Source: Lineus longissimus (lineage: Eukaryota > Nemertea > Pilidiophora > Heteronemertea > Lineidae). From it: a stretch of DNA of 64,000 nucleotides. Below, piece after piece: positions 21,101 through 55,640 of the stretch (within the stretch, counting starts at the first letter, position 1; each line of letters starts with the position of its first letter). The stretch covers positions 2,106,001 through 2,170,000 of the forward strand of contig NC_088321.1 of NCBI RefSeq assembly GCF_910592395.1. Direction: 5' to 3'. A program made the translations under genes and the position numbers. Under the pieces are notes generated by a model. It was given only the letters and a program-made list of their open reading frames with translations. It was not told the origin of the DNA and did no database searches.

Positions 21101-24100
21101 CGTGCATTGATGTACATGAAACAACATGTCAACATGATGTTACGTGTGCATTGATGTACATGAAACAACATGTCAACATGATGTTACACGTGCATTGATG
21201 TACATGAAACAACATGTCAACATGATGTTACACGTGCATTGATGTACATGAAACAACATGTCAACATGATGTCACACGTGCATTGATGTACATGAAACAA
21301 CATGTCAACATGATGTGACTCGTGCATTGATGTACATGAAACAACATGTCAACATGATGTTACACGTGCATTGATGTACATGAAACAACATGTCAACATG
21401 ATGTTACACGTGCATTGATGTACATGAAACAACATGTCAACATGATGTTACACGTGCATTGATGTACATGAAACAACATGTCAACATGATGTTACGCGTG
21501 CATTGATGTACATGAAACAACATGTCAACATGATGTTACACGTGCATTGATGTACATGAAACAACATGTCAACATGATGTTAGGAGCTAACATGCTAACA
21601 ACCGGCCCCTAGGGTTCTCCACAGGGTGTCCTCAAGGTGGGGTGGTACCCTAACAGGCGGAGGGTGGCCAGCATTTTAAAGGGGGACTATAGGCAGGAGC
21701 AGAGGGCTAACTTGGCCATCTTCAGGTGATTTATATACACAGTAAGGGCACTGGGTCATGTCAGATTCAGCACTAAATATATTCCTCGCACAAGCGTCAA
21801 TTATTTCAACGTACTGTGAGATGTGAGAGACCCCTATTGGCAACTGCAGTAACTTATCTTTAACCCTTAAGATCCCGCTAGCGTTAACCTGTTTTGAAAA
21901 CCAGGCCCTGTTTTATCAAATACAGAGCATTGAAAACTGGACAAACCTAGTTACATCAAGACATTTTAAGGGGTCCCTTCTCTCAGGGTACCGGTACGGA
22001 AAATGCATGAGTGGTATGACATGTGACTTCGAATATTACAAATGAGCTTTATAGAGCCCGGAGCGTCGAAAACTACACAATTATAGTTACATCAAGATTA
22101 CTCAGTAATCGTTTGGACTTTAGCACAGACTGTTAACCAATCTTAAAATCACGTCAAGGATACCTCCGGAAATGCATAACGGTGGATTTCTGATGAAACA
22201 GTTAAAGTCTACAATATTCATTTTTACACATTCCTCAGAGAAATGGCACATTTTGGGAATTAACCCATTAACTGCTACCGTGAGGCAAGACCACCATTGA
22301 ATATTCATAGGTTGGAGGTTCCAGGCCTATCAATTAGACGCGAGTATGTTTTTACCTGTCACATGCATATTTGGAGAGGTATTGAAAAGATATTTGATGT
22401 GGCAAGTCTACAGATATAAAGAAATTATTTAATGAAAAATTGATTTTGAATTTTGCTAATTTGGCAATAGGGGGCGTGTTTTGAGATTTTTCTGCCAGTT
22501 GGCTGAAAAGAGTGGAAATATCAACGTCTGTCCAATTTGTCCGATTATCAAAATATTTCCAAATTCAACTACCACAGTTTATTTTTCACCATTTACTTGC
22601 CCGACTGTCCGGAATATCATATCAAAATTTCAGATTCACAACCCCACACAGTATTTGATGCGTCGCGGTCAAACATTGACAATTGAACTGCTAAAAGGCT
22701 TAAAAAATCAATGGTGGTCTTGTCTCTCGTCGCCGAATTGCGGTGAGGGCCTATTTATATAGCGTTGACATCATTGAAAAGACGTCTGCTTTGCAGTTTT
22801 CCCGCCTACTGATAGATGGCGTACAGATGATCATTTCTATGGCAGTTTCAAGGAATCGAACTCTTCTCTGTTCAAGCAAGTCTTTTGAGTTGAACAGGTT
22901 ATGAAAATTCGAAAAAATATTCGTCAGTTGGAGGGTTGAATTACACGTAACGAGCCTTGTGCCATTCAAGAAGTCCAATCTAGCCACTTATGATAACACC
23001 CTAATTATAGACGGAGTTCCGGTATCATCCTTGAAAGCACACTCAAAACACTGCATGGCACATATAAAAAGATTCTGTGAAAACGTCGAAATATCGTGAC
23101 TAGAATTTGTCACTGAAAAACGTCGAAGTCTGCCTACCGTAGCATATGCATAAAAGACATGGACAAGAAGCTACTGAAGTAGTTAGCACAGAAGTGTCTG
23201 CCCACTACTCTCCCCCACACAGACCCGGGTGCCTGAGCCGGCACCAGACCCCCGGGCGCCAGACCCCCGGGCACCAGACCCCCGGGCGCCAGACCCCCGG
23301 GCACCAGACCCCCGGGCACCAGACCCCCGGGCACCAGACCCCCGGGCGCCAGACCCCCGGGCACCAGACCCCCGGGCGCCAGACCCCCGGGCGCCAGACC
23401 CCCGGGCGCCAGACCCCCGGGCGCCAGACCCCCGGGCACCAGACCCCCGGGCACCAGACCCCCGGGCGCCAGACCCCCGGGCGCCAGACCCCGAGCGCCA
23501 GACCCCCGGGCAACAGACCCCCGGGCACCAGACCTCCGGGCGCCAGACCCCCGGGCGCCAGAACCCCGGGCGCCAGACCCCGGGCACCAGACCCCGGGCA
23601 CCAGACCCCCGGGCGCCAGACCCCGGGCACCAGACCCCGGGCACCAGACCCCGGGCACCAGACCCCGGGCGCCAGACCCCGGGCACCAGACCCCCGGGCG
23701 CCAGGCCCCTGGGCGCCAGACATGGGCACCTGTACCGGGCGCCAGACATGTGTGCCAGACCCAGGCACCAGACCCCCGGGCGCCAGACATGTGTGCCAGA
23801 CTCGGGCACCAGACCCACTCCTTACGTCTCAATGTAAACATCTCCCATAGTGACCGGTGTGATTTCCCGTAGATTCAGGACGCTCCCCTTCCGATCCCTG
23901 TCGCCAAGCTTCTGCTGGACCGCCAACCAAAATCGGTGCTGGTTGTTCGTCATCTGAGCGCTGTCATGGGTCTCGACGATCATCAACGGCGATGTCGTGT
24001 TCGCTAATACGTCCGCCGGATCAGGACCGTATTGAATTTTCCCGATTCCGCGGGAATAATCGTACAGCGCGATACCCAATTTCTCCGCCAGAATCCCAAA

Positions 24101-27100
24101 GTATATGTCGTCGGGAAAAACCCACGGCGTCCGCCGCGACATGAGATTCATGTCTTGAATTGTTTTGATTGACATAATGATATGCGGACGGATGCAATAC
24201 GGCGGGAACGTCTTTCCCGTCCATGTGACGTTGGACGCATAGCGATCTTGGCCGGCGATTTTATCCTGGGGCGTGTCGAGGTAAACGACTTTACCCCAGT
24301 ATAGATCCTTGGCGTGCAACTTTTTCAAGTAGCGTAAAATTTTGAACGGGTTTATCATGACGTTGTCGTTGAGCTTTAAAACGTATTTCGCATTCGAGCA
24401 GAATTTCGAAGTCCATTTCAGCATCATTAACGCTTTGTCTGTTAATTTGTTGTACGCTTCTAAAAACGATCCTTGGACAATGTCGTGGTATTGTGCGGCC
24501 TCGGCCTCAATCAGCGACTGATGATACGTGCTCCCCGTTGACCCTAACAGAAACACAAAGCGTATATCCTGTCCGTTGGCACGTTGCAATCGCCCCCAAG
24601 TGGCGCGAATCGCCATCCGCATCGGCGTCGCCGACGGCTCTGATGAAATCGCGATCAACAAATACATATCTTTACAATTACAAATATGCGGCTGGTTGAT
24701 CAAGTAGTGCATATCTCGACGGTTAACCTCCGACGTTATCCCGAAAAACTCCATCGGAGTCGGCGATTTATACTCGCGCGGTCTCTCCCGTGGGAACGGG
24801 TGGGTTTTCCGCGGGAAGTTGTACCACCACGGTTTTATCGTCTTGCTTTCCAAATAATCCGACTCCATGTCGACCTTTTGATTCAGTTTCTCGATCAACT
24901 GCCAACTCTGCTGAATCGTCATGCGTTGGATTTCCACGCGTTTTATGTAGACGATTTCCGTGTCGTTAGGTTTCCGTCGGAAATAATTAAACAGCGTTTC
25001 GTAGTCCTTCCTCGGTGTGACTGGCCGGGTGATCAGTACCGGCGGTCTCTGCGTGATTTGAACTTGCTGAATTTTTTCCGGGTACATGTAGGAGTACTGT
25101 TGTCCGACGATTATAACAAGCAGCATGAGAATTGCATAAAGAAGCACTGTCCGTAACTTTACTCTCATTTTGAAATCGTGGCGTTCGGCGGAAAATGTTC
25201 CAAAATTGAATCTGATTTTCAGTGCGGTTTTCAGTTCAAACTGACTTAGTTGTGTCAAATTGAAGAAATTCTGTATGCCGCGAGTTTCTGCTCAGGTTGA
25301 TGGGTAGTCATAGTCTTGGCATTCAACCACCATCTCTGTAGAGCTGGAAATATAAACACAAAATAGAGTTTTAAGAATGAACCGTTTGGGAAATAATGAC
25401 AGATTTTAGACTTTTTTCATTGGCAATAGCATTCCGCGACGTTACTATTTATAGCTCATAAGGTCATTTGAATAAGATATTGATGACGTTTTAGTCACGT
25501 GACAGTCGGACATCGACACTTATTTCTACGCATTTGAGCTTATTTCAAAGTCAATTATCTTTGACCCTGCATTGTTTTTAGCGTGAATGATACCATAGAG
25601 TCAGAGAGAGAAATATTCAGAACAATTATGTAGTATTTCCATCGCTCGACATGTGCCAGATTGAATCTAACTGCCCTAGTTAGAAAGCCTGAATCCATTA
25701 CGAAACCGCATGTTTGTCCGACATTGCCTGTAATTCAGCGATGGGGAAATAGAGGGTAGCAGCTGCAGTGACGACATCTTCGCGGAATGCTATTGCTCTC
25801 AAAATATCCCCGTTCATCAAGGGTTTATACATAAACATCCTTTGGAAAATTCTCTTGGTTCCATTTCCAAATGATACCTTTTATGAAATACAGTAAAACC
25901 TCTCTGTTAAGGACACCCTCGGGACTGACAAGTAGCGGACACCTCTCTATTAAGGACACCCTCACGACTGACAAGTGTCGTCCTTAATAGAGAGGTGTCC
26001 TGATTAGAGAGGTCAAATTGAATGGAAATCACCAATTTGGGATCAAAACTAGTGTCCTTAATAGAGAGGTGTCCGGTAAGGGAGGTTCTACTGTACAGTG
26101 GAACCTCCCTTAGCGGACACCTCTCTATAAAGGACCATTTTTCACCCCACAGCCTCAGCGACAAGTGGTTAATTTGTTATTTCGACTGAATTATTGTGCA
26201 AAAACATGTTGAAAGAAAACTCAGTGAGCTGAAGTATTCATAGTCTGGTCTAAATATGATCCTGGGAGGTGGGTCATTATACCCCCAGGGCCACTTTTAC
26301 CCCACTTTACGGTACATTGTGTTTTGTTGAATGAAGCACTTAAACTAATTGCCATTTGCTAAATCTGTGCAATTGCTGCATTAATCAATCAGATGATTGA
26401 TACAGTACATTAGAACCTCTCTAATAAGGACACGTGAGGGACTGACTATGCTGTCCTTATTAGAGAGGTGTTCAGAAAAAGAAAGTCAAACCAACCTCGT
26501 GGTTGAGAGAATGTTGTCCTTATTAGAGAGGTGTCTGTATTGAAGGAGTGAAATCACCCTAAGGATTGACAAAATGTTGTCCTTATTAGAGAGGTGTCCG
26601 GCTAGCTGAAGTCAAACAACCTATTTAGGGTTAACGTAATGTTGTCCTTATTACAGAGGTGTCCATATTGAAGGAGTGAAATTACCCTATTGGTTGACAA
26701 TATGTTGTCCTTATAAGGGAGATGTCCATATACCTGAGGTCAAACCACCTGTTAAGGGTTGACGTAATGTTGAGTTCAAACTGACGTAATGTTGTCCTTA
26801 TAAGAGAGGTGTCCAGATAGCTGAAGTCAAACCACCTATTAAGGGTTGACGTAACGTTGAGTTCAAACTGACGTAATGTTGTCCTTATAAGAGAGGTGTC
26901 CAGTTAGCTGAGGTCAAACCATTCTTAGGTTGTCCTTATTAGAGAGGTGTCCAGATATCTGAGCTCAAACCACCCTATGGAGGGTTAACAGAATGTTGCA
27001 CTTACAAGAGAGGTGTGAGGTAGATTGAGAGGATAACTAATGTAAATGGTGTGCGTCAGACTGATGGGTCCTCTAAGGGAGGTTTCACTGTGTACTGTCG

Positions 27101-30100
27101 GTATAACAAGCATTGAAAGCCGTGTAAATGATACATCGATATCCGCTAGCGATCATTGATACTGGCTAACGGATTAGCATCAAATAGCGCAGCATAATCC
27201 GCTTAATTCCAAAAATAACGACAAACGTCACAAAAATCGTTAGAATAATCCGAACAGATCAACAAGCAATAATCTCATTTTTCTCGTCAATCTTTACAAA
27301 TGCCATTTTCCCGTGAAACCTAATGCGACGTTTTGGACGAAAGCCATTTTATCGGTTGCCGTGGCAACGAGAAGCAGACATCAGATTTTCCCGTACTTTC
27401 CGAGACAAAGGAAGTGACTCTGTAATCTGGTGTTTTATTGATTCTGAGATGAGGCTGTAGCATACAGCCATCATGTCGGTTGCAGTCGGCCTCATCGACT
27501 GATGTAGCGGTACAACCATGCTAATGACTGTCAGCTGAAAATTTTTTTTCAGTGCTAACAGTTGACAAAACCTCCCTTAGCGGACACCTCTCTATTAGGG
27601 ACACTAGTTCTGGTCGCAAATTGGCTGTTTTCATTCAATTTGACCTCTCTAATCAGGACACCTCTCTATTAAGAACACTAGTTCTGGTCCCAAATTGTTT
27701 GTTTTCATTCAATTTGACCTCTCTAATCAGGACACCTCTCTATTAAGGACACTAGTTCTGGTCCTAAATTGTTTGTTTTCATTCAATTTGACCTCTCTAA
27801 TCAGGACACCTCTCTATTAAGGACACTAGTTCTGGTCGCAAATTGGCTGTTTTCATTCAATTTGACCTCTCTAATCAGGACACCTCTCTATTGAGGACAC
27901 TAGTTCTGGTCCCAAATTGGCTGTTTTCATTCAATTTGACCTCTCTAATCAGGACACCTCTCTATTAAGGACACTAGTTCTGGTCCCAAATTGGCTGTTT
28001 TCATTCAATTTGACCTCTCTAGTCAGGACACCTCTCCATTAAGGACAGCACTGTCAGTCCCGAGGGTGTCCTTAATAGAGAGGTTCTACTGTAAGTGTTG
28101 ATCAAAAGGACAAGATTTTGACTGTGGAAACAATTTCGACTTCTTGCCTTAGCTGGTTGGCATCCCTAGCAAAAGCTATGTACAAATTGGTTTTGCCTAG
28201 CTTCAACTTTGACCTTTGTCAGTCTCCATGACATCATGAAACTAAACAGATACAGTAGAACCTCTCTATTGAGGACACCTTCGGGACTGACAAGTGCTGT
28301 CCTTAATAGAGAGGTGTCTGGATTAGAGAGGTCAAATTGAATGGAAACGTCCTAGGTGGGACCAGAACCAGTGTCCTTAATAGAGTGGTTGTCCTTAATA
28401 GAGAGGTTGTCCTTAATAGAGAGGTTGTCCTTAATAGAGAGGTGTCCGCTAAGGGAGGTTCCACTGTATTGGTCAGCGTAGGCTATTAAACTGAACAGAG
28501 TCTGTTAGCATCAAATCCCCTGGCTACCCGCATGATGTTTACGCCATTTAGCGTCAGACTTGATGGCTGCAGTTTAAAACCAGGGGTCTCCTTGGACACA
28601 TCGACTGATATAGCGACACAACTATGCTAATGTCTGTCAGCTGAAAAAAATCTTTCAGCGCTAACAGTTGACAAAACCTCCCTTAGCGGACGCCTCTCTA
28701 TTAAGGACACTAGTTCTGGTCCCAAATTGGCTGTTTTCATTTAATTTGACCTCTCTAGTCAGGACACCTCCCTTAGTGGAAAACAGTTCTTTAGGCAACT
28801 GTAATCCAGGGTCTCGTTTTTGTCGGGTGAAATTAACATTGGTTAATGTGACCTGTAATTTAAACATGGGTTGAAACACGATCATGGTAGCGTACACCTT
28901 ATCACCGAGGTGTCAGTGTCGAGAACACAGTCAATGAATTCGACAAGCCTAATTGAAATCGACACCATAAGAGGTTTTGTATATTTATAACGGAATACAT
29001 TGTCATAAGTGGTACAGTAGAACCTCTCTATTAAGGACACCTTCGGGGCTGACAAGTACTGTCCACAATAGAGAGGTGTCCTGATTAGATAGGTCAAATT
29101 GAATGGAAACAACCAACTTGGGACCAAACATAGTGTCCTTAATTGAGAGGTTGTCCTTAATAGAGAGGTGTCCTGACTAGATAGGTCAAATTAAATGGAA
29201 ACAACCAACTTGGGGCCAAAACTAGTGTCCTTAATAGAGAGGTGTCCTGATTATAGAGGTCAAATTGAATGGAAACAACCAACTTCGGACCAAACCTAGT
29301 GTCCTTAATTGAGAGGTTGTCCTTAATAGAGAGGTGTCCGCTAAGGGAGGTTCCACTGTAGTTGATCTTACCTTTGTAGAAATAGGTGATAGGTCTTCAT
29401 CACGATCCAACTCATGGTTAAGAAATACACAGAAATTATCAAGACGGTTTAAAGGGGGTTGACCATAGGTACTGCAAGATTTTTATCAAAACAGCGTGAG
29501 GTGTCTCCCCTTCAAGTTCCGTGGCTAACTACATGTAAATTCCCCGGTATAAATGATGGTGTCGGGGTACTTCACGAGTGTAGCATTTCACACACACCCT
29601 TGCTATTCATCTAGCGCCATTCACGCGTGATATCCAAACGTAATTGATATTGTCTGACGTGGTCTCCATTAATCTCCGCGTGATGGGGTGCTATTTTTAG
29701 GTCATGCATCATGAGGTGGCAGGGTCTGTCTGTCATTGTGCCGGGTCCTTAACCCTTTAGGAGGGGAGACGTGTCGGGCTTTAACGTTTGAAAATTGCCT
29801 AAGGAACTGTTTTTTACTCCCAGGTTTTTTGATTTTGAGGATAAAACCAGTCTCCATTCCACGATATATTGTGGAACGTCCCTTAGCGGACACCTCTCTA
29901 TTAAGGACAACCTCTCTATTAAGGACAACCTCTCTATTAAGGACAACCTCTCTATTAAGGATAACCTCTCTATTAAGGATAACCCCTCTATTAAGGACAA
30001 CCTCTCTATTAAGGACAACCTCTCTATTAAGGACAACCTCTCTATTAAGGACAACCTCTCTATTAAGGACAACCTCTCTATTAAGGACAACCTCTCTATT

Positions 30101-33100
30101 AAGGACACTATTTTTGGTCCCAAATAGGTTGTTTCCATTCAATTTGACCTCTCTAATCAGGACACCTCTCTCTTAAGGACAGCACTTCTCAATCCCAAGG
30201 GTGTCCTTAATATAGAGGTTCTACTGTACTTGTGGATATTGCATATTGCGTTTTGCAATAAAAGTCGCAATTTCCGCTAATCACACTGTACACTGCCCTC
30301 GAAAGTTTCCCACTCATCGACAGATGGACGTTGAACGAACCCACTCAGGAGAGGCCGACATTTATCAAAACGTATTTAGGCCGCTCGTCAGGTCGTCATG
30401 TCGATAGCTATTAACTAACGCCATCACCGCCGCTTTGTGGTAATAATGGCGGCCGTTAGTCGAATCGAATATCGATAAGTACCATCATGACCATAATACT
30501 CCTCGAGCCGTGAATCGTTGCGCTGGGGTTTGTATACAGGGTGGTCCAGAAAATAATGCAACCGGATGCTTCCACTACCAGGGGGTTAACGCCGTTGGTG
30601 TCAGTGGATGGGGAATCTTTCTAGGAGAGGAATGATACCAAGATGCCTGATTTGGTTCAGTAGTTTTTGTGTACAGGGTGGGCCAGAAAATGACGCAATG
30701 GGATACTTCCACTACCAGAGGGTTAACACTATTGACATCAGTGGATGGGGAATCTTACTAGGAGAGGTTTGATACCAAGATCGTCCGATTTGGTTCAGTA
30801 GTTTTTGTGTACAGGGTGGTCCAGAAAATAACGCAACCGGATACTTCCACTACCAGGGGGTTAACACTGTTGGTGTCAATGGATGGGGAATCTTACTAGG
30901 AGAGGAATGATACCAAGATCGTCCGATTCGGTACAGTAGTTTTTGTTTTAGGGCCTATTTTGTGAAGCACAGGCTTTATTCAGGTATAGGAAAAATCGAA
31001 CTGTGCCGGTAAATTGAACTAAATGAACTGGGTTAAGGAAGTAGGTGATTAAATGTTAATAGCGAGTTTCGGCATCGCTTACGATTACGATTACGATTTG
31101 TGTCTGACGTCATCGATTTTTGGTGCTACGTCATCCCCAGCGAAATCGTCGATGGTACTTTCGTCTCGTTCTTACGAGGATTCCGGCTGATCTTCGTAAG
31201 TCGAAAACGATTACATGGATCAGCGAAAAGCCTATTTTCCACGCTACATATCAAATTCAAGGTGAAATATTCATTGAAGAATACTTTAGAACATATCTGT
31301 CAAACATAGGAACCGCATTTAATGTGATCAACGGCGATTTTGATCATGTTTTAGCGCCGAGAAAAGTGCACCCAGAGCATGAGAGCAGAGTATAGGGCCT
31401 ATACTACAGTACACCAAGTCTTTGGTGTGAATGCGGAAACAAAATTTCTGGTTCATGCCGGTTTTGAGAGTATTACGATTACGACTTTGAAATCGTAATC
31501 GCAATCGTAAGCGATGCGGAAACTCCCTAATGTTGACAATGTTCCTAGTGACCATTTGCAACTGAGTAAAGGTCGTGTAATGCAAGTATCAATTCGTGTC
31601 TTGTACCCCCCCTCCTCAAGGGTACAACACCTTATCACCCTATAACGACATCTTAAGGCTCAAGCGTCACCCTTTTTTCACCAATGCTACTTTTTCTTTC
31701 GTCAAGACATCACCATCAACAATATATCAGTTATCACCGTCATATAAAGTAACCGGACTAATTTTACTGGGTAAGGCTGTATGTTCGACAAGACATCGAC
31801 ACATTAGCATCCTTATTCTTTCCAGCTTCGCCAAATTTTCACTAAAGGAAAAATAAATACTACTCAAGCATCGGCAAAGATTAGTGGTGATAGCTTAACT
31901 ACCCTTGAGGAGGGGGGGTACAAGAAACGAATTGATACTTGCATAAGCATTGCCAGGCCTCAGCACACCGCCGAGATGTTTGTGACCTTCAACAGAAGCG
32001 TATTCAACCTGGCCAAGGGACTCCAACCTTGCTTCAAAAAATTCTCTCTACAGCAAAAACTACTGAACAGAATCAATCAACCTTGGTATCATTCTTCAAT
32101 CTGAAATTCCAAAGTTGGTGCTGGGGTATAAATTCTTCAAAAGGGTAAATCAATCTGAAATTCTGAAGTTTGTACTGGGGAATAAAAAATTCGAAAGGGT
32201 AAGTCAATCTGAAATTCTGAAGTTTGCACTGGGGTATAAATAATTCAAAAGGGTAAATCAATCTGAAATTCTGAAGTTTGCACTGGGGTATAAATAATTC
32301 GAAAGGGTAAATCAATCTGAAATTCTGAAGTTTGCACTGGGGTATAAATTCTTCAAAAGGGTAAATCAATCTGAAATTCTGAAGTTTGCACTGGGGAATA
32401 AATAATTCAAAAGGGTAAATCAATCTGAAATTCTGAAGTTTGCACTGAGGTTTACATATTGGAAAAGTCTGAAATTACCGAAGTTTGCACTCATTCTAAG
32501 AAACGGGTTTACAGTCGTTTATTAATATCCCGTGAATCCAATGAAGCAATAACCTTGGCCTACTCACCAAAGTTACCATAACGCTCTTCACGCTGTGTCA
32601 ATAGTTGCTATTATTTCACAAAATGTTATCGTTAGCAGGAGGAATATATCACTCCGGTTGGTGCAAGGATAATCGAGCTGCATTATAGTTCATCAGATGG
32701 TGTTGTTATTGATATTTTCTTGGTCTGATTAACCCCTCTAGTTCTGTTGTGGCTTAAATTGTACATTATGGCCTAGCTAGATGGGGGGAGGGGGAAATAC
32801 CCCCCAGAGCAGAGGTAAAAAAGGGGTTGCAGTTTTGTAAACAGGGGTTTAGCTAACCTTTTGGTCTTGGGGGAGGTAAAAGGCTCACTGGGGGAATCAC
32901 ACTTTTTGAAAAATGTTGCCTAAAAATCACGGTCAAAACACATTTGTTGGTTCCCCCCCCCCTTGCTAGCTATGCTAATGCTATGTGTTGGGGGGGGGGG
33001 ACAGTAATAGTATCATTAGGAAAAATTTCTGTCTAAACCGTTGTTGAGCAAACTAAAACTCCCGGATGGAATTTAAAACGTACAAAGCTACATGAAAGAC

Positions 33101-36100
33101 TAAGTAAAGATATTAAAACTTTACCTGCGCGCCAACGAGATGCAATTGTAGGGCAATAGCTAATCCAATCCTAGACAGCATCAATACACACTGTTGTGCA
33201 CAGTGATCCCAGACAGCATCAATACGCACTGTTGTGCACAGTGATCCTACACAGCATCAATACGCACTGTTGTGCACAGTGATCCTACACAGCATCAATA
33301 CGCACTGTTGTGTACAGTGATCCTACACAGCATCAATACGCACTGTTGTGTACAGTGATCCTACACAGCATCAATACGCACTGTTGTGCACAGTGATCCT
33401 ACACAGCATCAATACGCACTGTTGTGTACAGTTATCCTACACAGCATCAATACGCACTGTTGTGTACAGTGATCCCAGACAGCATCAATACGCACTGTTG
33501 TGCACAGTGATCCTACACAGCATCAATACGCACTGTTGTGTACAGTGATCCTACACAGCATCAATACGCACCATTGTGTACATTGAACCTACATCGATAG
33601 CACATCAGAACGACCCAATTTCCGAACCTTAAAAGCGTCTCGTTTTATGTGCTCTGCGTTATCATTTCATATATCGCGATGGAAGTTAGCAGTTGCCAAA
33701 CCTTTTTGTAACGAGATGGTAATTACGGCAATTATAGTCTGTAATTAGGGCAATTATAGTTGTTAGCGTGAGACTCATTTGTTACGGCCTGTTTCAAACT
33801 TATTGGAAAACCTCGAGAATTGCGATACAAACCGCTTTTTGTCCCTTGTCGATTTCAAAGTTATATTGACCGGTACATCATAAATAATTCAAAATCATTA
33901 GAACCGAAATCTGACTTAAAGTTTTTTAAAGGGGTATTACACTGTCGGTGATTACTGGTGGTCCAGGAAAATAGAAATGCAGTTATGTACAATGCCGTAG
34001 TGCAGTTATTATGCATGCAAATTGGCTGAAACTTGGTATGTTAAGTATTAGTATATCTGTTTACGCAATGACAATGTTGAAATTTATTTTTAGGACATAT
34101 TCATGAGAGTGGAACGTTTCAAATTCAATTACAAGTTCAAAACGAACGGCATAGGCCTTTAAAGGGTAACTCGTGTCAAATTTCACCATATAATGTTTTA
34201 GCTGTTTTTGACAAATGACTACGTCACTTTCTCATAAATCGGTAAGGTTTTCGAATCGAAATGCACATTTTCTAGAAATTGATGGTTTAATCCCGCCCGG
34301 ACGGCTCGCTTCAATGCCGTTTTCGTCGATGACGTCACAACATGAACATTTTCGCGGTCGCGGTGGTTTACATTCAGCGATTTTATAATAAATCTAATCA
34401 AAAATGGAAAATTTGAGCTTTACATTTGTGATCAACAATTAAAAACGGACGTATTTCCGCAAAGTTGTAAATCAGATCATAGTATGACTTTAACTTACAA
34501 ATGGAAATAGATTTTCAAAGCTGGTGCAAGTACAGAAAGTTTTATAGAAAGGTAATCTTCAAGATCATTCTAGAATAGTGATACAAGCACTGCCCCCCTT
34601 TGAATTTACTGAGTGTGTGTGTGGGGGGGGGGCTTGCATAAGCACTGAAGCCATGCAACGCTCACCTATATTTTTCTACGCTGCTCGAGTCGATTTCAGT
34701 GCAATGTACTCAAGCACACCAGCTAAAGCGTTAAGGCAACTCGATAATTTTATCGTAATTATCTCCAAATAAAACATGGAGTCCTCTTCACGTCCGAGGA
34801 CTGTACTCTCAACGTGATTGAGTGCTGTTGTTGGGCTCTGTTAGATTGGTTCCCATCCCCTTCTCAGTTTAACCCCTAAGGAACGAATTGCAAATTGGTT
34901 CCGAACTTGCGTGATGCACTTGTAACACTCGTTTCAGTGAGAGCAGGGGTCAATCTCGGGGGGGGGGGGGGGGGGGGATTTTAAAGAGTTGGATGTGAAC
35001 AACTAAATCTACTTTACATGTAGGTCTTTTTGAAAAAGTAATTCATCAAAATTCCATTTGATTCAAATGGGAGTTTTTTTTACCTTCATTTTGCAATCAT
35101 GCATGTATGACTTTGCTCTGGTGCCATTGCATTTTGATATTAAAATATGCATTTGTTGTAACAGTGTGACCTCTCTTAGCGGACACCTCTCTATTAAGGA
35201 CAACCTCTTTATTAAGGACACTAGTTTTTGTCCCAAATTGGTTGTTGCCATTCAATTTGACCTCTCTAATCAGGACACCTCTCTATAAAGGACAGCACTT
35301 GTCAGACCCAAGGTAGTCCTTAATACAGAGGTTCTACTGTAGTTTGGTGTTAGAATATAATTATACACGCTTATGCATATTCCATGATCGAATTTCAAAT
35401 AAAATAGAACCTCTCTATTAAGGACACCCTTGGGACTGATAAATGCTGTCTGTAATTAAGAGGTGTCTTGATTACAGAGGTCAATTTCAATGCAAAAATG
35501 ACCAATTTGGGACCAAATGCAGTGCTCTAATAGAAAGACTCCTTAACTCTTTCAGTGCCAAGGACGTACATGTACGTCCTAAATATTAAGGTATTTTAGT
35601 TCCTCCAGACGACACCAGATGTCCCCAGCTACTCAAATGTGGTTCATATGGTTTCTCTGGCCTGGGGCGTCCAAATTGAATAATTTTTTCGACTGAGAGG
35701 GTGGGGTGGGGTTTGCCACCCCTCATTTTAGGTGAAAAATGGTGAAAATCGGCCAAAAATACCACTCCCTCAAAAAAATTTAGAACATAATCCTAGTATG
35801 CCCCTACTTATTACTGCTGTTTTATTGAAACAGGAGGTAAAGACAAAGGTTTTGAAGAATTTTGATGAGTGTATCTCAATTATTTTTGTGAGATTTTGGG
35901 TAGTGACAATGCCCAAAAATGCCCAAATCCTGGGCACTGAAAGAGTTAATAGAGAGAGAGTCCTTAATAGAGAGTGTCCTTAATAGAGAGAGTGTCCTTA
36001 ATAGAGAGAGTGTCCTTAATAGAGAGAGTGTCCTTAATAGAGAGTGTCCTTAATAGAGAGAGTGTCCTTAATAGAGAGTGTCCTTAATAGAGAGAGTGTC

Positions 36101-39100
36101 CTTAATAGAGAGAGTGTCCTTAATAGAGAGAGTGTCCTTAATAGAGAGTGTCCTTAATAGAGAGAGTGTCCTTAATAGAGAGTGTCCTTAATAGAGAGAG
36201 TGTCCTTAATAGAGAGAGTGTCCTTAATAGAGAGAGTGTCCTTAATAGAGAGTGTCCTTAATAGAGAGAGTGTCCTTAATAGAGAGTGTCCTTAATAGAG
36301 AGAGTGTCCTTAATAGAGAGGTGTTCACGAAGGGAGGTGGCACTGTACCTAGCGCTATATTTTTAACCTGATGCTTTTAGTGTAATTTTACTGTGTGATT
36401 AATCATTCATTGGCGACGTTTTATTACATTTTACCCGAGTTGTGATTCATATTTCCGATATTATCCTGGGAAATTCAATGGTTGCCTGGGTTGTGGTATG
36501 AGAGTATAGGATCCATGGATCATATTGCCATCAAGAGTTTCGGGGGGGGGGGGCGAGCAGTTTATCACAATCCTCAAACAGTGGTACCATTAGAAAGTTC
36601 ACATCAGGAGCTTTCCAATGAATGGTCATGTCAATAGGTTTACAAATGGTACCATCTGAAAGTGCTCATCAAGAGCTTTCCGATGAATGGTCATGTCGAT
36701 AGGTTTCAATGATCCATTAAAGAGTGAGCCATGTATCGTGTTCATGAAAAAATGGTACCATTAGAAAGTTCTCACCAAGGGATTTCCAATGAAGGGTCAT
36801 GTCCAGAGGTTTACAAATGGTACCATTAGGAAGTACTCATCAAGAGCTTTCCAATGAATGGTCATGTCAATGGGTTCATTAAAAATCGAGCTATGCATCA
36901 TGGTCATGAAGAAATGGTACCATTAGAAAGTTCTCATCAGGAGCTTTTCAATAAATGGTCATGTCAAGAGGTTTACAAATGGTACCATTAGGAAGTTCTC
37001 ATCAAGAGCTTTCTGATGAATGGTCATGTCAATGGGTTTCAACAATTCATTAAAAATCGAGCTATGCATCACTGTCATGAAGAAATGGTACCATTAGAAA
37101 GTTCTCATCATGAGCTTTCCAATGAATGGTCATGTCAATAGGTTCAGCGATTCATAGAAAAGCGAGCCATGTGTTATAGTGTTCATGAAAAAATGGAAAG
37201 TTCTCACCAAGCGCTTTCCAGTGACTGATCACGCATATAGGTCTTGACAATTCATGACTGAGGCGAAATTTCTGTTTGTCTCAAAGATCCATAACTAAGG
37301 CCAAATCATGTTGCCATCAAGTTTATTGAGAGAAACAGCCATTTATCGTGTTCATGAACAAAGAATTTTTTGGCACAACTCAATTTGCACCAATCCAACA
37401 TACCATGGTATTATCCATATCATGTCTAATCTGTCCTCCAAATTTCTGAGCAATCTGGCCTACATTAAAGGTTTAATGATAAAAAATGTCAAAAAATTCC
37501 TATGCATTTTCATTTAAATTCCAAAATTTGAAGCCATTTTTCTCAAAGTGATTACAGTAGAACCTCCCTTAGCGGACACCTCTCTATTAAGGACACCCTC
37601 TCTATTAAGGACACCATCTCTATTAAGGACACCCTCTCTATTAAGGAAACCCTCTCTATTAAGGACACCCTCTCTATTAAGGATACCCTCTCTATTAAGG
37701 ACATTCGTTTTGGTCCCAAATTGGGTGTTTCCATTCAATTTTGACCTCTCCAATCAGGACACCTCTAATTTAAGGACAACACTTGTCAGTCCCAAGGGTG
37801 CCCTTAATAGAGAGGTTCTACAGTATATACCAGAAAAGTTATGCATTAAATCCCTCTTATGTAGCCAAAATTACTTTTATGATGCATCTCGTTCTGCAAT
37901 GACTCTCTTCAAATTGGACGAGGAAAAGCAAAAAAAGTGAGACATTTATCGCGTATTGCGTTGAAAAACCGCTTGTGACTCACTGTAACCAGACCATCGG
38001 GCAGCTACTGCTATCTTAATCATTAGCTTGGTCACGTTACCATGGTAATAATACATCCCTTAGCGTGGGTATCAGCGGTTTTCACGCATTTCACCATTGT
38101 CGCATTTTTATATTGTCGAAGGCTCGGGTTAAGCTATCGGTCGTATTACGAGAAATCGAGGTTGGGTTTTTTGCAGGGGTCAACGTCAAAGCGGAAACGT
38201 AATTCCAGCTCATAATACAGGGATTCAAATGTCTGAGTTTTAGCTGAATTTAAAGGGTAACTCGTGTCAAATTTCACCATATAATGTTTTAGCTGTTTTT
38301 GACAAATGACTACGTCACTTTCTCATAAATCGGTAAGGTTTTCGAATCGAAATGCACATTTTCTAGAAATTGATGGTTTAATCCCGCCCGGACGGCTCGC
38401 TTCGATGCCGTTTTCGTTGATGACGTCACAACATGAACATTTTCGCGGTCGCGGTGGTTTACATTCAGCGATTTTATAATAAATCTAATCAAAAATGGAA
38501 AATTTGAGCTTTACATTTGTGATCAACAATTAAAAACGGTTGTATTTCCGCAAAGTTGTAAATCACATCATAGTATCACTTTAAGGGTTCCGCTAAGTTT
38601 AGTAGCAGTCACTAAAACTTAGCAGTCGCTAAGCTAGCTGGGCTTTGAACAACCGGACCTGGCTGCTTCATTCTGCACCGTTTGAATTGGAGCAATGACT
38701 ACACAAGAGCAAAGCTAAAATGTGTATCTCGTACGTATTTATGCAGCGGGATATTTTCAAATTCGATTACGAATTTTCGAATTTTTTACGAACCGTGTAG
38801 GCCTTTAAGAAATAGGAAAACAATTGCTGACGTCTCTTCATACACTTACCTTTCAGTCTTAACGAATTATCAAACTCGAGCCAGCATTCCCACCGTCAAA
38901 ATAAACACAAGTCCCTACGCTGGTTGTATCAGTATCATGACTCTCGCTCCGTGTATAAACATTCCTTTATCTGCGAAATCAATGATAGAATGAACTGTTC
39001 CGTAGCAGTGGGTTGTACCATGTGTTTAGGGGAGAAGGTTGTTTGGATCAGTATTTTTGATTGGATTCTTTGTGCGTCCGTCCGTCTGTCTGTAAGTTGA

Positions 39101-42100
39101 TGTCGGTCCTTACGAGGTTGGGTGTGCCATCTGTCTGTCTGTCTGTCTGTCTGTCTCAACAATGGATCAAACTGTTCTGGAGGGGGTTCTGTTTTTGGAT
39201 GGTGTTGCATGGGATCATGGCAAACATCTGTCTCATGTCTGTCTGTCCGTCTGTTCTAGTCTGGGGGCATTTTCCAAAAACGACGTCCTTCCAATTTCGT
39301 TTCAACACCCTTTACATGAGGTTTGACTTGCTTGCTTGATAATATGATAATAGCACATGAAATTATCGCTAGCACAATGCTAACGTCTTTACCATTGCCA
39401 TGTAAACAGTCTTAGCATCTTCTCCCGCTAGGATAAAGTGGATTGAGAGGCAGACGCGCATCTTCAACGATATTGATATCTTGTCAGAAAGTCTGAAGGA
39501 GCCGCTTTGTTATTCTTAGCGAGATATTTGAACATTCTGAACATACAAAGGCAAACAAGATATGAAGTACAGTAGAACCTCTCTATTAAGGACACCCTCG
39601 GGACTGACTAGTGCTGTCGTTAATAGAGAGGTGTCCTGATTAGAGAGGTCAAAATGAATGGAAGCTACCAATCTGGGACCAAAGCTAGTGTCCTTGATAG
39701 AGAGTTTGTCCTTAATAGAGAGGTGTCCTGATTAAAGAGGTCAACATAAATTGAAGCTACCAATTTGGGATCAAAGCTAGTGTCCATAATAGAGAGGTTG
39801 TCTCTATTAAGGACACTCTCTATTAAGGACATCCCCTCTCTATTAAGGACCCTCTCTATTAAGGACATCACCTCTCTTTTAAGGACATCACTTGTTAGTC
39901 CCGAGGTTGTCATTAATAGATAGATGTCCACTAATAGTGGTTCCACTATATATTTAATATTGCATGCTGGGAATCATGTTGGGTTGAGAAAATGGCACAC
40001 ATCCTCAGCAATATTGTAACAGTCGGTAAGGGGTTAACCAATTGAGGGATCTGTCTTATAAATCTGATCGTTGTGTCTGACATATATTGGAGTAAATACC
40101 CACTTATCTCTTATCTAGCAACAGCAGTATATCTCAGGGGATAGTCACATATTCAGATTGGTTAGAGAGGGTCGGATTTCGATTCGAGAACGCGGTGATT
40201 TTTTTCTCTGGTTGACGACGTCAAGCAAGTTTAATATTTTGTACCAGAGTTGTTATTTCCCATCCTGAACCTCATGGTCTTATGGTCAGTGTTCTCCACA
40301 AGGCTATTTATTTGTCAGGGTGGCCCACCCTACCTTTGCAGCATACCACTCTACCTTAAAAGAGCCACCCTACCTTGCTCTAGAACTTTGTAGAGGGTTC
40401 CTATAGGGCCACCCTATCTCAAATTGCTGGCCACCCTACCTTGGAAGAGCCACCCTACCTTGCTCTAGAACTTTGTAGAGGGTTCCTATAGGGCCACCCG
40501 ACCTCAAATTGCTGGCCACCCTACCTTGTGTTGCACACTGGTAAAACGTCATGCAAATCATGGGTATCACCCTTACCACCCTACCTTGGAAGAGCCACCC
40601 TACCTTGCTCTAGAACTTTGTAGAGGGTTCCTATAGGGCCACCCGACCTCAAATTGCTGGTCACCCTACCTTGTGTTGCACACTGGCAAAACGTCATGCA
40701 AATCAAGGGTATCACCCTACCTTGAGAAAACCCTGTGGAGAACACTGAACACTGAAAACCTTGGTGGTGGTTTCTAGGCACACAAGACATTAAGGACTCA
40801 CTGTTTTACTGCGTTTTAGACAAGAGGTATCAACCGTGATATCTGCCGTCTATAAAACTATAAACCTCTCTATTGGCTATGGTAGGGATTAAAGAGCTTG
40901 TCTGGCCGTAGGGGGTTAACCAATTGACCTGTTCTGAAGGAGTTGCACTGGCTGCCGGTAGAGCAAAGGATTACCTACAAGTCTTCGGAGCCATACATGG
41001 CACTGCCCCTAGGTACCTTGCAGGCCTTTCAATTACATGGAGACCTCTACACCCTGTATTTTTTTGGCCTATTTTGGGGACATGTTTTTTTTGCTTTTTA
41101 GCTTAATTTGGGGACATTTCATCGCGCCAATTTGCCTGAACAGCGACGTCATAAATCAAAGTAAGTGACTGTTATCACCACATACACATGAACAATCATA
41201 ATTTTTAGGGTAAAACTATAAAATTAGGCCATTTGGATGAGATTTGGTTATGTTAGGGGTCAAAAAACGCTTCAGGGGGTCATATTATTAAAAAAAAAAA
41301 AAAAAAAAAAAAAGACGACCTCATTTGGGGACATCCGTTATACGGTGTAGGAATCATGTAATTGAGAGGCCTGCCTTGGTAGCCTCTTCACTCTCCACGT
41401 ACCGGTTCGCCCTCTTAGATCAGGGGCACAGGACCTACTGATTCAGCCCGATTATAGACCCAAGACTTTCGGTGGCAGATCGTTCCAAATTCTTGCTCCT
41501 GGCATGCGGAACGCACTTGACGCCACACTGCGGCAGGAGACTTCATTGGTCTCATTTAAAAAGGACCTAAAGACGCATCTTTTCCGTCGTCATTTTGGGG
41601 AGTGAGGAACTACAGTGGAACCTCCCTTAGCGGACACCTCTCTATTAAGGACAACCTCTCTGTTAAGGACAACCTCTCTATTAAGGACAACCTCTCTATT
41701 AAGGACACTAGTTTTGGTCCCAAATTGGTAGTTTTTATTCAATTTGACCTCTCTAATCAGGACACCTCTCTATTACGGACAGCACTTGCCAGTCCGGAAG
41801 GTGGCCTTAATAGAGAGGTTCTACTGTATGTGGGGAGCGCCGTAGAACATTGCTGCAGTGGAATAGGGCGCTATAAAAATTTTATTTTCATTCATTCAAT
41901 TGACCTCCCCATCTTATAAATCTGGTGGTCATGCCTGAGGTATTGGCATAACAGGGTCAATAACCACTTACCTCTGATCCGGCAACCGCAGTCATCATGA
42001 GAGAATGTACACGTATTCTCAACAGAATTGATTGGCTGTGGCAGATCAAAGAGGTCTGTAGGCCCTGGAGCGGGAGGGGGGTTAATAAATCTGGGATTGT

Positions 42101-45100
42101 CTCATATCAACATCGCAGAACCTCTTATCTTTAATCCAGCAACTACAGTAATAGCATTCCGCAAAGTTACTATTTATAGCTCACAAGGTCATTTGCATAA
42201 GATATTGATGACGTTTTAGTCACGTGACAGTCGGACATCGACACTTATTTCTACGCATTTGAGCTTATTTCAAAGTCAATTATCTTTGACCCTGCATTGT
42301 TTTTAGCATGAATGATACCATAGAGTCAGAGAGAGAAATATTTAGAACAATTATGTAGTATTTCCAACACTCGGACATGTGCCAGATTGAATCTAACTGC
42401 CCCAGTTAGAAAGCCTGAAGCCATTACGAAACCGCATGTTTGTCCGACATTGCCTGTAATTCAGCGATGGGGAAATAGAGGGCAGCAGCTGCAGTGACGT
42501 CATCTTCGCGGAATGCTATGCTGAGAGGATCTTCACATATTCTGAACAGTATTCATTGGCTAATGGCAGGACTAGAGGTCGCTAGCCTGTCGTAGGGGAA
42601 TAAAGAATTGACCGCCCCGTCTTATGAATCTGGTGGTCCCATTTGACATATTGACATTGCAGGTCAATAACCGCTAAACTCTGATCCGGCAACAATAGCC
42701 TAGCCTAGCGCTGAGATTGGTTGGCTAAGGCAGAAGGGGTGAAGCTTTAACGCTAATTGCAGTTGCAATAAAGACACTTTTACAGCTGGGAAGGTTCTGT
42801 ATTTAAAGGTGCATGCCGTTCGTTAAAAATTTTGAATTTGTATTCGAATTTAAAAATGTCCAATTGCAGAAATACCTACGAAATATAAATTTCAACATTG
42901 CCGTTGTGTAGACTGATATATAAATACAGTGGAACCTCTGTTAGCGGACACCTCTCTATTAAGGACAACCTCTCTATTAAGGACAACCTCTCTATTAAGG
43001 ACAACCTCTCTATTAAGGACACTAGTTTTTGTCCCAAATTGGTTGTTTCCATTCAATTTGACCTCTCTAATCAGGACACCTCTCTATTAAGGACAGCACT
43101 TGTCAGTCCTGAGGGTGTCTTTATCAGAGAGGTTCTACTGTAAAATAGATTCGCAACAATAAAATTGGAGAAAAAAAATTTATTTGAAAAAAACAAAGGA
43201 AATTTTGTAACATTGTTTTATCTTAAAGGGAGACTATAGGCAGGAGCAGAGGGGCAAATTTGGCCATCTTCAGGTGACTGATATCAATACACAGTAAGGG
43301 GCCTGGGTTATATCAGACTCAGCACTAAATATATTCCTCGTACAAGCGTGAATCATTTCCACCTACTGTGAGATGTGAGAGACCCCTATTGGCGGCTTTG
43401 TGTAACTTTATCTTTCCTGCCTAGCTGCTGCCTATATTGTCCCTTTAAATGACATATGCCCTAAGCTAGTACGAATCGTGGTCACGGCCATCTTCAGTAC
43501 GATTATACTACGCAATCACAATGTTTGATGTACAGTGACTTATGCAACATGGAATCTAATACTGCTGGAGAAAATATACTTGAATATCATGTATGCTTTC
43601 GAGAATGTATAAATGATTCATAGATTAGTCGCAGGGCGATCTTTTCTACAAGACGAAGAAGGTTTGGAGAGTTTAGCGCATCCTAAGAATATCGATATTG
43701 TGTCATAACGTTTGAGAAGAGAATGTCAAGGATGTGCTTGAGTGCTATGTTTCATAGCCAAGAATATCAGAGATACGTGTATGATTTTAAGTAGAGGAGG
43801 GGCCCTTAGTAGAAAAGGGTGTCCTTAGTAGAAAAGGGTGTCCTTAGTAGAAAAGGGTGTCCTTAGTAGAAAAGGGTGTCCTTAGTAGAAAAGGGTGTCC
43901 TTAGTAGAAAAGGGTGTCCTTATTAGAGAAGGGTGTCCTTAGTAGAGAAGGGTGTGCTTAGTAGAAAAGGGTGTCCTTAGTAGAGAATTGTGTCCTTGTA
44001 GAGAATTGTGTCCTTAATAGAAAAGGGTGTCCTTAGTAAAAAAGGGTGTCCTTAGTAGAAAAGGGTGTCCTTAGTAGAGAAGGGTGTCCTTAGAAGAAAA
44101 GGGTGTCTCAGTATAGCAGTGTCCTTAGTAGAAAAGGTTGTCCTTAGAAGAAAAGGGTGTCTCAGTGTAGGGATGTCCTTAGGAGAAAAGGGTGTCCTTA
44201 GAAGAAAAGGGTGTCTCAGTATAGGGGTGAACTTAGTAGAAAAGGGTTTCCTTAGAAGAAAAGGGTGTCTCAGTATAGGGGTGTCCTTAGTAGAGAAGGG
44301 TGTCCTTAGGGTGGTTTCGCTGTAATAATTGGCTAAACTAGGAAACTGCACCAACACAATCTCTTGCCAAACCAGACTGTGATATCCTCTATTTGCCATA
44401 GCCATGGGCTATAACGTCATAACAACCCACAACTAACCTCAGTTGATATTTTTACCGTTTTCCATCCACTCTCTTCCGGCCCAATGAAATGTTGTATTTA
44501 CTTTCTTGTTACCATGGTAACTGGGCAGCCAGGGTGGATATAAATGCAGGCATCCGTATATCACTGCTGACCAGCTTTGTTGCGGAAATTAACTGACGGA
44601 ACGTCTGGAAGGGCAGATTATTGATGGGTCTAGCGGTAATGGGCGGTGTGCCTTTGTTGTTGCGATAATGATGGTTATTAAGACGCTCGCAGGACCACCA
44701 GTGACACCTATTGACCAGACAGGAGAACTGCGATGACGCCTATAAAATCATGAATTTCAATCATCGAGTTCTATTGACTTGCTTGCTATTGGGAGGGTTT
44801 TATTCCAGTCGGTTAGAACCTTTAAAAGCCTCAAGCATTCGCTAAAAATTTGAAATTCAGAAGTGAATTTGAAAATTTCCAGCCATCAAGGGTTTTGTTG
44901 TCATGAGTGACATGTTTGAGACCGTCAACCACGCTTTCCTCAACAGCCAGGTCCCTGAGCTCTGACCAGACGCGGCCTTCCCCTCACTCAAACCCCCCAG
45001 TCACCCAGCAACTTATCATTAAATCTATATTTCCAGAACTCCCTGGAACAACTCAAGAAAGCCATCAAGATCAAGGGTTTCGTAGTCATGAGTGACGTGC

Positions 45101-48100
45101 TTGAGACCGTCTACCACGCTTTCCTCAACAGCCAGGTCCCCGAGCTCTGGGCAGACGCGGCCTACCCCTCACTCAAACCCCCCAGTCACCCAGCAACTTA
45201 TCATTAAATCTATATTTCCAGAACTCCCTGGAACAACTCAAGAAAGCCATCAAGGGTTTCGTAGTCATGAGTGACGTGCTTGAGACCGTCTACCATGCGT
45301 TCCTCAACAGCCAGGTCCCCGAGCTCTGGGCAGACACGGCCTACCCCTCACTCAAACCCCCCAGTCACCCAGCAACTTATCATTAAATCTATATTTCCAG
45401 AACTCCCTGGAACAACTCAAGAAAGCCATCAAGGGTTTCGTAGTCATGAGTGACGTGCTTGAGACTGTCTACCACGCATTCCTCAACAGCCAGGTCCCGG
45501 AGCTCTGGGCAGACGCGGCCTACCCCTCACTCAAACCCCCCAGTCACCCAGCAACTTATCATTAAATCTATATTTCCAGAACTCCCTCGAACAACTCAAG
45601 AAAGCCATCAAGGGTTTCGTAGTCATGAGTGACGTGCTTGAGACTGTCTACCATGCGTTCCTCAACAGCCAGGTCCCCGAGCTCTGGGCAGACGTGGCCT
45701 ACCCCTCACTCAAACCCCCCAGTCACCCAGCAACTTATCATTAAATCTATATTTCCAGAACTCCCTCGAACAACTCAAGAAAGCCATCAAGGGTTTTGTA
45801 GTCATGAGTGACGTGCTTGAGACCGTCTACCATGCGTTCCTCAACAGCCAGGTCCCCGAGCTCTGGGCAGACGCGGCCTACCCCTCACTCAAACCCCCCA
45901 GTCACCCAGCAACTTATCATTAAATCTATATTTCCAGAACTCTCTGGAACAACTCAAGAAAGCCATCAAGGGTTTCGTAGTCATGAGTGACGTGCTTGAG
46001 ACTGTCTACCACGCGTTCCTCAACAGCCAGGTCCCCGAGCTCTGGGCAGACGCGGCCTACCCCTCACTCAAACCCCCCAGTCACCCAGCAACTTATCATT
46101 AAATCTATATTTCCAGAACTCCCTCGAACAACTCAAGAAAGCCATCAAGGGCTTCGTAGTCATGAGTGACGTGCTTGAGACTGTCTACCATGCGTTCCTC
46201 AACAGCCAGGTCCCCGAGCTCTGGGCTGACGCGGCCTACCCCTCACTCAAACCCCCCAGTCACCCAGCAACTTATCATTAAATCTATATTTCCAGAACTC
46301 CCTCGAACAACTCAAGAAAGCCATCAAGGGCTTTGTAGTCATGAGTGACGTGCTGGAGACCGTCTACCACGCTTTCCTCAACAGCCAGGTCCCGGAGCTC
46401 TGGGCAGACGCGGCCTACCCCTCACTCAAACCGCTGGGGAGCTGGGTGACTGATCTGGTTCTCCGCTGTGCCTTCATCGACTCATGGATCTCCCACGGAC
46501 CGCCGAAATCGTTTTGGCTCTCCGGATTCTTCTTCCCACAAGGTATGAAACAGATGCTTTATCGTTTATCTTCTATCGTAAGGCAGATCAATGTCCGCCA
46601 CCTGAAGTGAATACTCCAGTGCGCATTGATGAGACAAGACCACCATTGATTTTTTAAGCCTTTTAGCAGTTCAATTGTCAATGTTTGACCGCGACGCATC
46701 AAATACTGCGTGGGGTTGTGAATCTGAAATTTTGTTATGATATTCCGGACAGTCGGGCAAGTAAATGGTGAAAAGTAAACTGGTAGTTGATTTCGGAAAT
46801 CTTTTGATAATCGACAAATTGGACAGACGTTGATATTTCCACTCGTTTCAGCCAACTGGCAGAAAAGTCTCAAAACAAAATTAGCAAAATTCTAAATTAA
46901 TTTTTCATCAAATAATTTCTTTATATCTGTAGACTTGCCACACCAAATGTCTTTCAATACCTCTCCAAATATGCATGTGGCAGTTAAAAACATACTCGCG
47001 TCTAATTGATAGCTCTGGAACCTCCAAACCTATGAATATTCAAACCTATGAATATTCAAACCTATGAATATTCAATGGTGGTCTTGTCTCCTATGATGAC
47101 ATCACGTGACACATTGGAGCGCTTTATAAACACAAATATTAGGGCCGTTTAGACGACAGGCGAAAAGACCGCATTCGGATCGAATCTGGATGAATCCGGA
47201 TTAAAACCACCCAAGGCGATGGTACCTTTTTAGTCCGGATGCAACCACATTGATCCGGATCTTTTTGCGTTTACACGACGAAAAATTAATCCGGATTCGG
47301 GACGCATCCGGATTTTTTCGCGTCGTCTAAACGGCCCTATTGATTGATTGATTGATGGATACATCTGGGAATGAACTTTTCAGTAATTGAGAGAACGTTT
47401 TTCGTATTTTCACAAGTTTCTTTTCGACCTTAGGTTTCCTGACCGGCACCCTCCAGAATCACGCTAGAAAATACAATCTCCCGATCGATCATTTGTCGTT
47501 CGAGTTCCACGTCTTGACGCAGTTCCGTGATCAAGCAGACGTCGCCGCTGCAATGGCCGAGCTCAAGTTCGGTGAGGAGTTGGAAATGGACAAAGAGGTA
47601 TGTATCTAAAGTGAAACCTCTCTATTAAGGACACCCTCGGGACTGACAAGTGCTGTCCCGAATAGAGAGGTGTCCTGATTAGAGAGGTCGAATCGCATGA
47701 CAATAACCAGTTTAAGTCCAAAACTAGTTTCCTTTATAGTCTATCGAATGGAGAGGGTGTCCTTAATAGAGAGGTGTCCGCTAAGGGACGTTCCACCATA
47801 TTCTATTTATTCTTTTAGGAATTTGCATTCACTAGCAGGTCTGCGCTAAATTTTTGTCAGGGATGATGAAGCTAAAATGTAGGTCAAACCTGAAGCGCTC
47901 TGGTAAAAGCTCGGGGGCAGAATTGGCGCTGATGCGTAGCTGACGCGAAGCAGAGAGTACGTCAGTTGTGACTGTGACTGTAAAAGCCATGTCTTAAATA
48001 ATGTGTCCTTTCTTGCAGCTCCCAGCAATCACCGACGGCGTTTTCGTCCACGGGTTATTCATGGATGGTTTCCGTTGGAACACGGAGACGACCACTGTCG

Positions 48101-55009: not shown

Positions 55010-55640
55010 TTGGTTTGACTCTTCCAGCTGGTTATTTACTACAACAATCAACATAACCCACAAGCTCGCACCCAGGTGGAAGGTGAATGGAATAGAACAC
55101 TGGTTAGTATGATCGAATTATGCCATCGGTCTGTAAACGAGATCCATTGTTGATGTGGCCTCGCGAACAGGTCATGGGGCCATTAGTCCATAACAAGTGA
55201 TGTACATTTCATTTAGCTTCCACCTGAGGGCGAGCTTGTGGGTAATTGTTGATTCATATGTTGTGGTGATATGTTGGTTTGACTCTGCCAGCTGGTTATC
55301 CACACCTTGGAGGGTCTTTTTGTGGAGTCTCCAGTTATTTTGCCTGAACCGGTTGGATATACGCTAATGTTGGTTTGACTCTGCCAGCTGGTTATCTGAC
55401 GCACCTATAACGCTTCTGAATCTGACTCTAGTTACTTGACGCTATACCAGCTGGTTATATGCTAAAGTTGGTTAGACTCTACCAGTTCTGTTAGTTTGAC
55501 TCTACTGGTTATCTACTACCCTTACTCTGCTTCCAACAGTGCCACTGGTTGTCGAGCTCCAGTCATTTTGACTCGACCAGTGGGTTATATGCTAAAGTTG
55601 GTTTGAATCAGTTATGTTGGTTTGAATATGCCAGCTGGTT
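55010..55640 (-). repeat. CCAGCTGG minisatellite, reverse of the intron f/g array, with palindromic element
   Basis: Repeats of GGTTTGACTCTGCCAGCTGG followed by TTATC at irregular spacing. Between them, 55,041-55,265 is an imperfect palindrome with long arms (AATCAACATAACCCACAAGC / GCTTGTGGGTAATTGTTGAT). Confidence 0.82.

Follow-up and report, generated by a model that had tools for sequence, protein, structure and literature searches.

How does a gene keep to the right splice site when the boundary between an intron and the next exon is repeated many times in a row, each time with the same acceptor? The question is raised by exon 17 of a dynein heavy chain gene in a window of 64,000 nucleotides (nt) from the ribbon worm Lineus longissimus (contig NC_088321.1, positions 2,106,001 to 2,170,000, forward strand). 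Dynein heavy chains are the motor proteins of cilia. An earlier reading of this DNA, hereafter the original prediction, had described a series of decoy acceptors before the exon and reasoned that either the spliceosome follows a positional rule here or truncated isoforms are made. We find that the array is real and of a known though seldom reported kind, that it occurs in a group for which we found no earlier report, and that the variation among its copies has an evolutionary signature worth testing. The splicing dilemma would have a ready answer in exon definition. Duplication of the boundary, exon definition and a shared pool of gene conversion together form what we regard as the best explanation, and we hold it with moderate confidence.

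In the model of the window, 20 exons on the forward strand between positions 1 and 48778 cover the C-terminal 1,387 residues of an axonemal dynein heavy chain, with 19 introns of 421 to 27,139 nt. Among solved structures, DNAH6 was the best match and aligned with the modelled part over its full length (query 1-1387 against DNAH6 residues 2775-4158, 2140.7 bits), compared to 1253 bits for the best DNAH7 score; judging from this comparison, the gene is a DNAH6-type dynein heavy chain gene. The best protein match among the hits listed (best 120 of 1,648) was a protein from Owenia, 75% identical over the entire query. The residues of exons 16 and 17 are joined without a gap in all seven relatives aligned from these hits, so that a single last copy of the repeated segment suffices. 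The upstream exon ends at 19156 in the gene model, as had been predicted.

The repeated unit joins a 42-nt intron end, acceptor included, to the 137 nt with which exon 17 begins. Coordinates (Table 1) and Tandem Repeats Finder (44881-46432, period 179, 8.6 copies, 96% matches, score 2798) bear out the copy count of the original prediction, i.e., seven full decoys and one truncated edge copy before the functional ninth copy. The length of 137 nt stands for six of the decoys, whereas the first full copy has 143 nt owing to a 6-nt duplication, which is in frame and is the sole indel among the full copies. All eight occurrences of the 42-nt spacer are identical, and the edge copy has an in-frame stop and five missense changes. 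A DNA search of the genome (391,118,348 bases in 30 contigs), in which only the best candidates were scored, gave eight matches, all of them inside the array; no further copy of the unit was found in the window at an E value of 1 or less.

Because their spacers are identical, all eight full copies have the same acceptor score (10.3, in a gene whose 19 real acceptors score 0.1 to 17.3). The equal strength that had been claimed thus applies to the full copies but not to the edge copy, whose acceptor is weak (-1.2). A donor within the spacer had been named as one of the observations that would overturn the original prediction, and we looked for one. The best GT within any unit scores 0.4, below all 19 real donors (2.5-11.8, leave-one-out; 7.2 for exon 17), and we reject the reading of the decoys as ordinary skipped exons with donors of their own. 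Only the ninth copy has both a donor and an open continuation, as had been stated. There are seven reading frames, one per full decoy, which share the same ending and then meet a stop. The predicted truncation therefore holds, but its size of about 220 residues does not: splicing to the decoy at 46117 would remove 199 native residues and add eight, leaving 1,196 residues vs. 1,387 in the window model.

Correct splicing gives an exon 17 of 247 nt, and the full-decoy acceptors would give exons of 426 to 1,506 nt. Because the flanking introns are 27,139 and 891 nt long, exon 17 would be recognized by exon definition, and the acceptor nearest to the only good donor, which is the last one, would win. 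According to the text available to us of PMC9225289, where alternative sites lie between large introns, preference goes to the splice sites with the shortest distance across the exon, and the structural setting of this rule is found here, with large introns on both sides and the productive acceptor nearest across the exon. This published proximity rule would already favor the last acceptor, the site chosen in the original prediction, so that there is no need to invoke a further rule; the positional rule of that prediction is not new. What sets the present case apart from those in the same text is that eight acceptors of identical sequence would compete. Eight identical acceptors before one exon offer a clean natural test of how a site is chosen when site strength cannot decide.

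The same gene contains a mirror image of this arrangement. Between 8105 and 8620, the end of exon 8, its donor and the start of the following intron stand in three copies in total, which adds two extra donors. Exon 8 has 181 nt when spliced correctly, and the extra donors would give 349 and 522 nt. In both arrays (donors of exon 8, acceptors of exon 17) the productive choice is the shortest exon, a consequence of how such duplications arise and survive, and this pattern fits the exon-centric rule as set out in the available part of PMC9225289. The donor array provides the opposite test of splice-site choice within one gene. Neither this array nor the synonymous bias and inverted 12-mer described below had been part of the original prediction.

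In amphioxus, exon/intron boundaries repeated in tandem have been given the name “mirages” (PMC3087553). In the portion of that paper available to us, BflGb6 has a unit of 150-160 bp made of an intron end and an exon start, with six units on one haplotype and three on another, and in BflGb9 an exon end is duplicated. Inner units are described there as evolving in concert, in contrast to the boundaries of the clusters, and according to the authors reverse transcription PCR suggests that regular splicing is undisturbed. The accessible text of PMC3902484 adds mirages in Adh3, troponin C and PGBD5. The Lineus array likewise consists of tandem repeats across the intron/exon boundary of a real exon, with inner units that form mosaics and a decayed edge unit excluded from them. 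Judged by its sequence, it is a new example of a mirage, i.e., a minisatellite unit straddling an intron/exon boundary. As far as the available text of PMC3087553 goes, the likeness extends to minisatellite-like copies at acceptors or donors, homogenized inside and excluded at the edge. The differences are that ours are in a ribbon worm rather than a cephalochordate, with seven full decoys plus an edge copy, that acceptor and donor versions occur within one gene, and that a synonymous bias is seen, the word “synonymous” being absent from that text. We found no earlier report of mirages outside amphioxus in the literature searched, in which cephalochordates are the only group with them, and the present case extends their range.

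Two other known arrangements invite comparison. Intron gain from duplicated splice sites, as treated in the same part of PMC3087553, also involves intragenic duplication carrying splice signals, but no new intron has formed here. The reason is that the units have no good donor. Dscam-type arrays of mutually exclusive exons, which have docking and selector sequences, share with the Lineus array the tandem exon copies and one segment complementary to each spacer; unlike them, the decoys are incomplete exons. We rejected this class because the copies lack donors of their own, at the donor scores given above.

In untranslated decoys, amino-acid replacements would be expected to make up the majority of changes. 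Instead, 11 of the 13 exon variants among the eight full copies (in 135 nt read as codons) are synonymous, and the other two are missense singletons. Mutation was modelled under 12 settings (transition bias 1-4, CpG factor 1-20). These lead one to expect a synonymous share of 0.22-0.40, and at least 11 synonymous variants among 13 then have a probability of 2.9e-6 to 1.4e-3, or 1.1e-5 to 2.9e-3 when the private variant of the functional copy is dropped. The full copies have a mean non-synonymous distance (dN) of 0.005 and a mean synonymous distance (dS) of 0.17, and dS between decoys and the functional exon is 0.19-0.33. The decoys resemble sequence under protein-coding selection, which was unexpected. 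CpG hypermutability was rejected as the sole cause, given a P of 1.4e-3 at its strongest setting and the fact that the variants other than CpG transitions are all synonymous (7/7, P 3.3e-5). The private changes of the edge copy, counted by eye, look neutral (2 synonymous, 6 other including the stop; P 0.018). So does an untranslated control array in another dynein gene (L032:623-991, minus strand), in which a 102-bp unit with the end of the last exon, the stop codon and the following sequence stands in 3.6 copies; against the functional copy it has 2 synonymous and 10 other variants (P 0.0012). Variants are also distributed in mosaic fashion, with 11 of the 15 two-state site pairs that are informative violating the four-gamete test, and hence the copies exchange sequence.

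We propose that the array arose when the last part of intron 16 was duplicated in tandem together with the first 137 nt of exon 17. Based on the variation and on simulation, we further propose that gene conversion between haplotypes keeps the functional exon and all seven decoys in a single shared pool. Amino-acid changes in decoys would be purged once copied into the functional exon, synonymous variants would circulate, and the edge copy, standing outside the exchange, would decay. All simulation rates were chosen, not measured. Conversion within a single lineage, whether symmetric or mainly from the functional copy, was rejected as it gave too low a synonymous share (0.28-0.35); among 1,777 samples with 9-17 variants, which are correlated within runs, one had at most two non-synonymous variants. 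Small populations gave shares of 0.19-0.84 depending on the setting. With 500 haplotypes the share was 0.60-0.74 with exchange, compared to 0.42 without exchange between haplotypes. With 1,000 haplotypes and frequent exchange, runs at two mutation rates reached shares of 0.86 and 0.78; the samples that fitted numbered 135 of 191 comparable ones at the first rate and 71 of 153 at the second. In such models, unexpressed decoys can look constrained if they swap sequence with the functional exons of a large, diverse population. This suggests that exon copies needing no translation can carry a signature of coding selection, so that such a signature alone is no proof of translation. Simulated pairwise differences were 0.63-0.78 for a single copy, compared to 1.63 in a functional exon under rarer exchange and 3.13 under frequent exchange. 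If the shared pool holds, higher synonymous diversity is expected in the first 137 nt of exon 17 than in an exon present once.

Several observations weigh against a shared pool. Many settings fail, as runs with exchange range from 0.19 to 0.86 and those without exchange between haplotypes reach at most 0.48. The runs that fit require functional alleles to be separated by about 5-6 synonymous differences within 45 codons; a count of 153 single-nucleotide polymorphisms from six Lineus longissimus, given in the available text of PMC7162527, lends no support to high diversity, and may reflect either low diversity or thin data. The spacer has no variable site in 42, vs. 10 in 44 synonymous sites (P 0.001; 0.005 without CpG transitions), and such invariance was seen in one of 310 otherwise fitting simulated samples. 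Finally, the CpG-transition variants alone are synonymous in 4 of 6 cases, as under neutrality. This last count, the neutral look of the edge copy and control array, and the wealth of minisatellites in the window (103 rows from Tandem Repeats Finder) would suit an ordinary neutral minisatellite, whose bias is due to chance or to mutation bias outside our models and which needs no exchange. We consider this unlikely, as the bias departs from expectation under all 12 mutation settings and none of the seven variants other than CpG transitions changes an amino acid. Assembly or polishing artefacts in part of the copy number or sequence are far less probable still. Tandem repeats of 97% identity are prone to mis-assembly, and one amphioxus mirage was aberrantly assembled in a draft genome (PMC3087553, in the part available). 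However, the accessible text of PMC8593623 puts 79-fold long reads behind the Lineus longissimus assembly, and an artefact has no reason to favor third codon positions.

A recombination hotspot could account for the invariant spacer, as could selection on its branch point and acceptor or actual splicing to the decoys. Under the last of these, the decoys would yield a truncated DNAH6 with the tail PSHPATYH or transcripts for nonsense-mediated decay, copy number would tune output, and selection would keep the copies. Array length would then act as an inherited and rapidly mutating control on a motor protein. The synonymous bias, the in-frame indel and acceptors as strong as the real one agree with this, and decoy use in place would explain both protein-level constraint and the invariant spacer, the latter of which the shared pool does not explain; we nevertheless find it improbable. 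Seven copies making one product are redundant, leaving weak selection on each, the decoys have neither a donor nor a second open continuation, relatives need no such product, and similar amphioxus arrays were reported not to disturb splicing (PMC3087553, same portion). The spacer also contains a 12-nt stretch that is the reverse complement of exon 17 just past the copied part (Table 1); such a match arose by chance in none of 20,000 shuffled spacers and none of 3,672 sampled intron 42-mers. The exon stretch might dock with the 12-mers of the eight spacers and so pick the acceptor, and the complementarity is perfect (-26.2 kcal/mol), with the helix present in the minimum-energy and centroid structures of 46226-46480 and the spacer unchanged throughout. 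We give such pairing hardly any credence, though, because the fold is no better than that of shuffled sequences (z -1.37), a spacer without variation offers no covariation, and any such helix also encloses the true acceptor. The simpler account, which we consider likely, is that an inverted template switch during the founding duplication left the inverted 12-mer as its scar.

Table 1. Coordinates of the exon 17 acceptor array, the exon 8 donor array and associated features in the window (position 1 is its first nucleotide).
Feature	Position	Strand	Remarks
Exon 8	7968..8148	+	donor GTAAGT at 8149
Second copy, last 44 nt of exon 8, then donor GTAAGT	8273..8316	+	
Third copy, last 44 nt of exon 8, then donor GTAAGT	8446..8489	+	
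Exon 16	19070..19156	+	donor GTAGGG; 20-exon model
Intron 16, 27,139 nt, with the array at its end	19157..46295	+	gene model
Truncated edge copy, 112 nt	44883..44994	+	without first 25 nt of exon
Decoy copy 1, 143 nt	45037..45179	+	6-nt in-frame duplication
Decoy copy 2, 137 nt	45222..45358	+	missense singleton at 45336
Decoy copy 3	45401..45537	+	
Decoy copy 4	45580..45716	+	missense singleton at 45695
Decoy copy 5	45759..45895	+	
Decoy copy 6	45938..46074	+	
Decoy copy 7	46117..46253	+	
Last 42-nt spacer, real 3' end of intron 16	46254..46295	+	
12-nt spacer stretch, reverse complement of 46441-46452	46257..46268	+	in every spacer
Functional exon 17, first 137 nt common with decoys	46296..46542	+	donor GTATGA at 46543
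Exon 17 stretch complementary to spacers, just past copied part	46441..46452	+	

Arrays of this type were found at two of the 33 DNAH6 exon matches (41 rows minus the eight decoy copies), and across a splice site at none of 61 matches in five 10-kb stretches of other dynein genes. These counts are no census, as 26 genome matches were listed, nine of them in the DNAH6-type gene, and the other loci were partly fetched. A weak further boundary repeat of the DNAH6-type gene, upstream of the window, was set aside as a dispersed repeat beyond the exon and no mirage. In another dynein gene, a 26-nt stretch spanning an acceptor occurs twice, 112 nt apart and alike at 24 of 26 positions (L032:2151-2176 and 2263-2288, minus strand); this repeat, at one of the 61 matches, is possibly a two-copy decoy acceptor.

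Among the other repeats of the window, a 17-18-bp repeat like TGTCCTTAATAGAGAGGT forms many intronic arrays on both strands (266-784, 3283-4098, 9149-9440, 13803-14076, 35946-36324). A 161-bp unit stands in 1.9 copies at 4614-4911; the tRNA finder reported no tRNA gene in the window, and part of the unit resembles a tRNA B box, so that it is perhaps a tRNA-derived short repeat. Downstream of the DNAH6-type gene, a tandem array with a period of 181 (6.1 copies) occupies 52362-53473, and reading frames near 55626-56050 resemble it.

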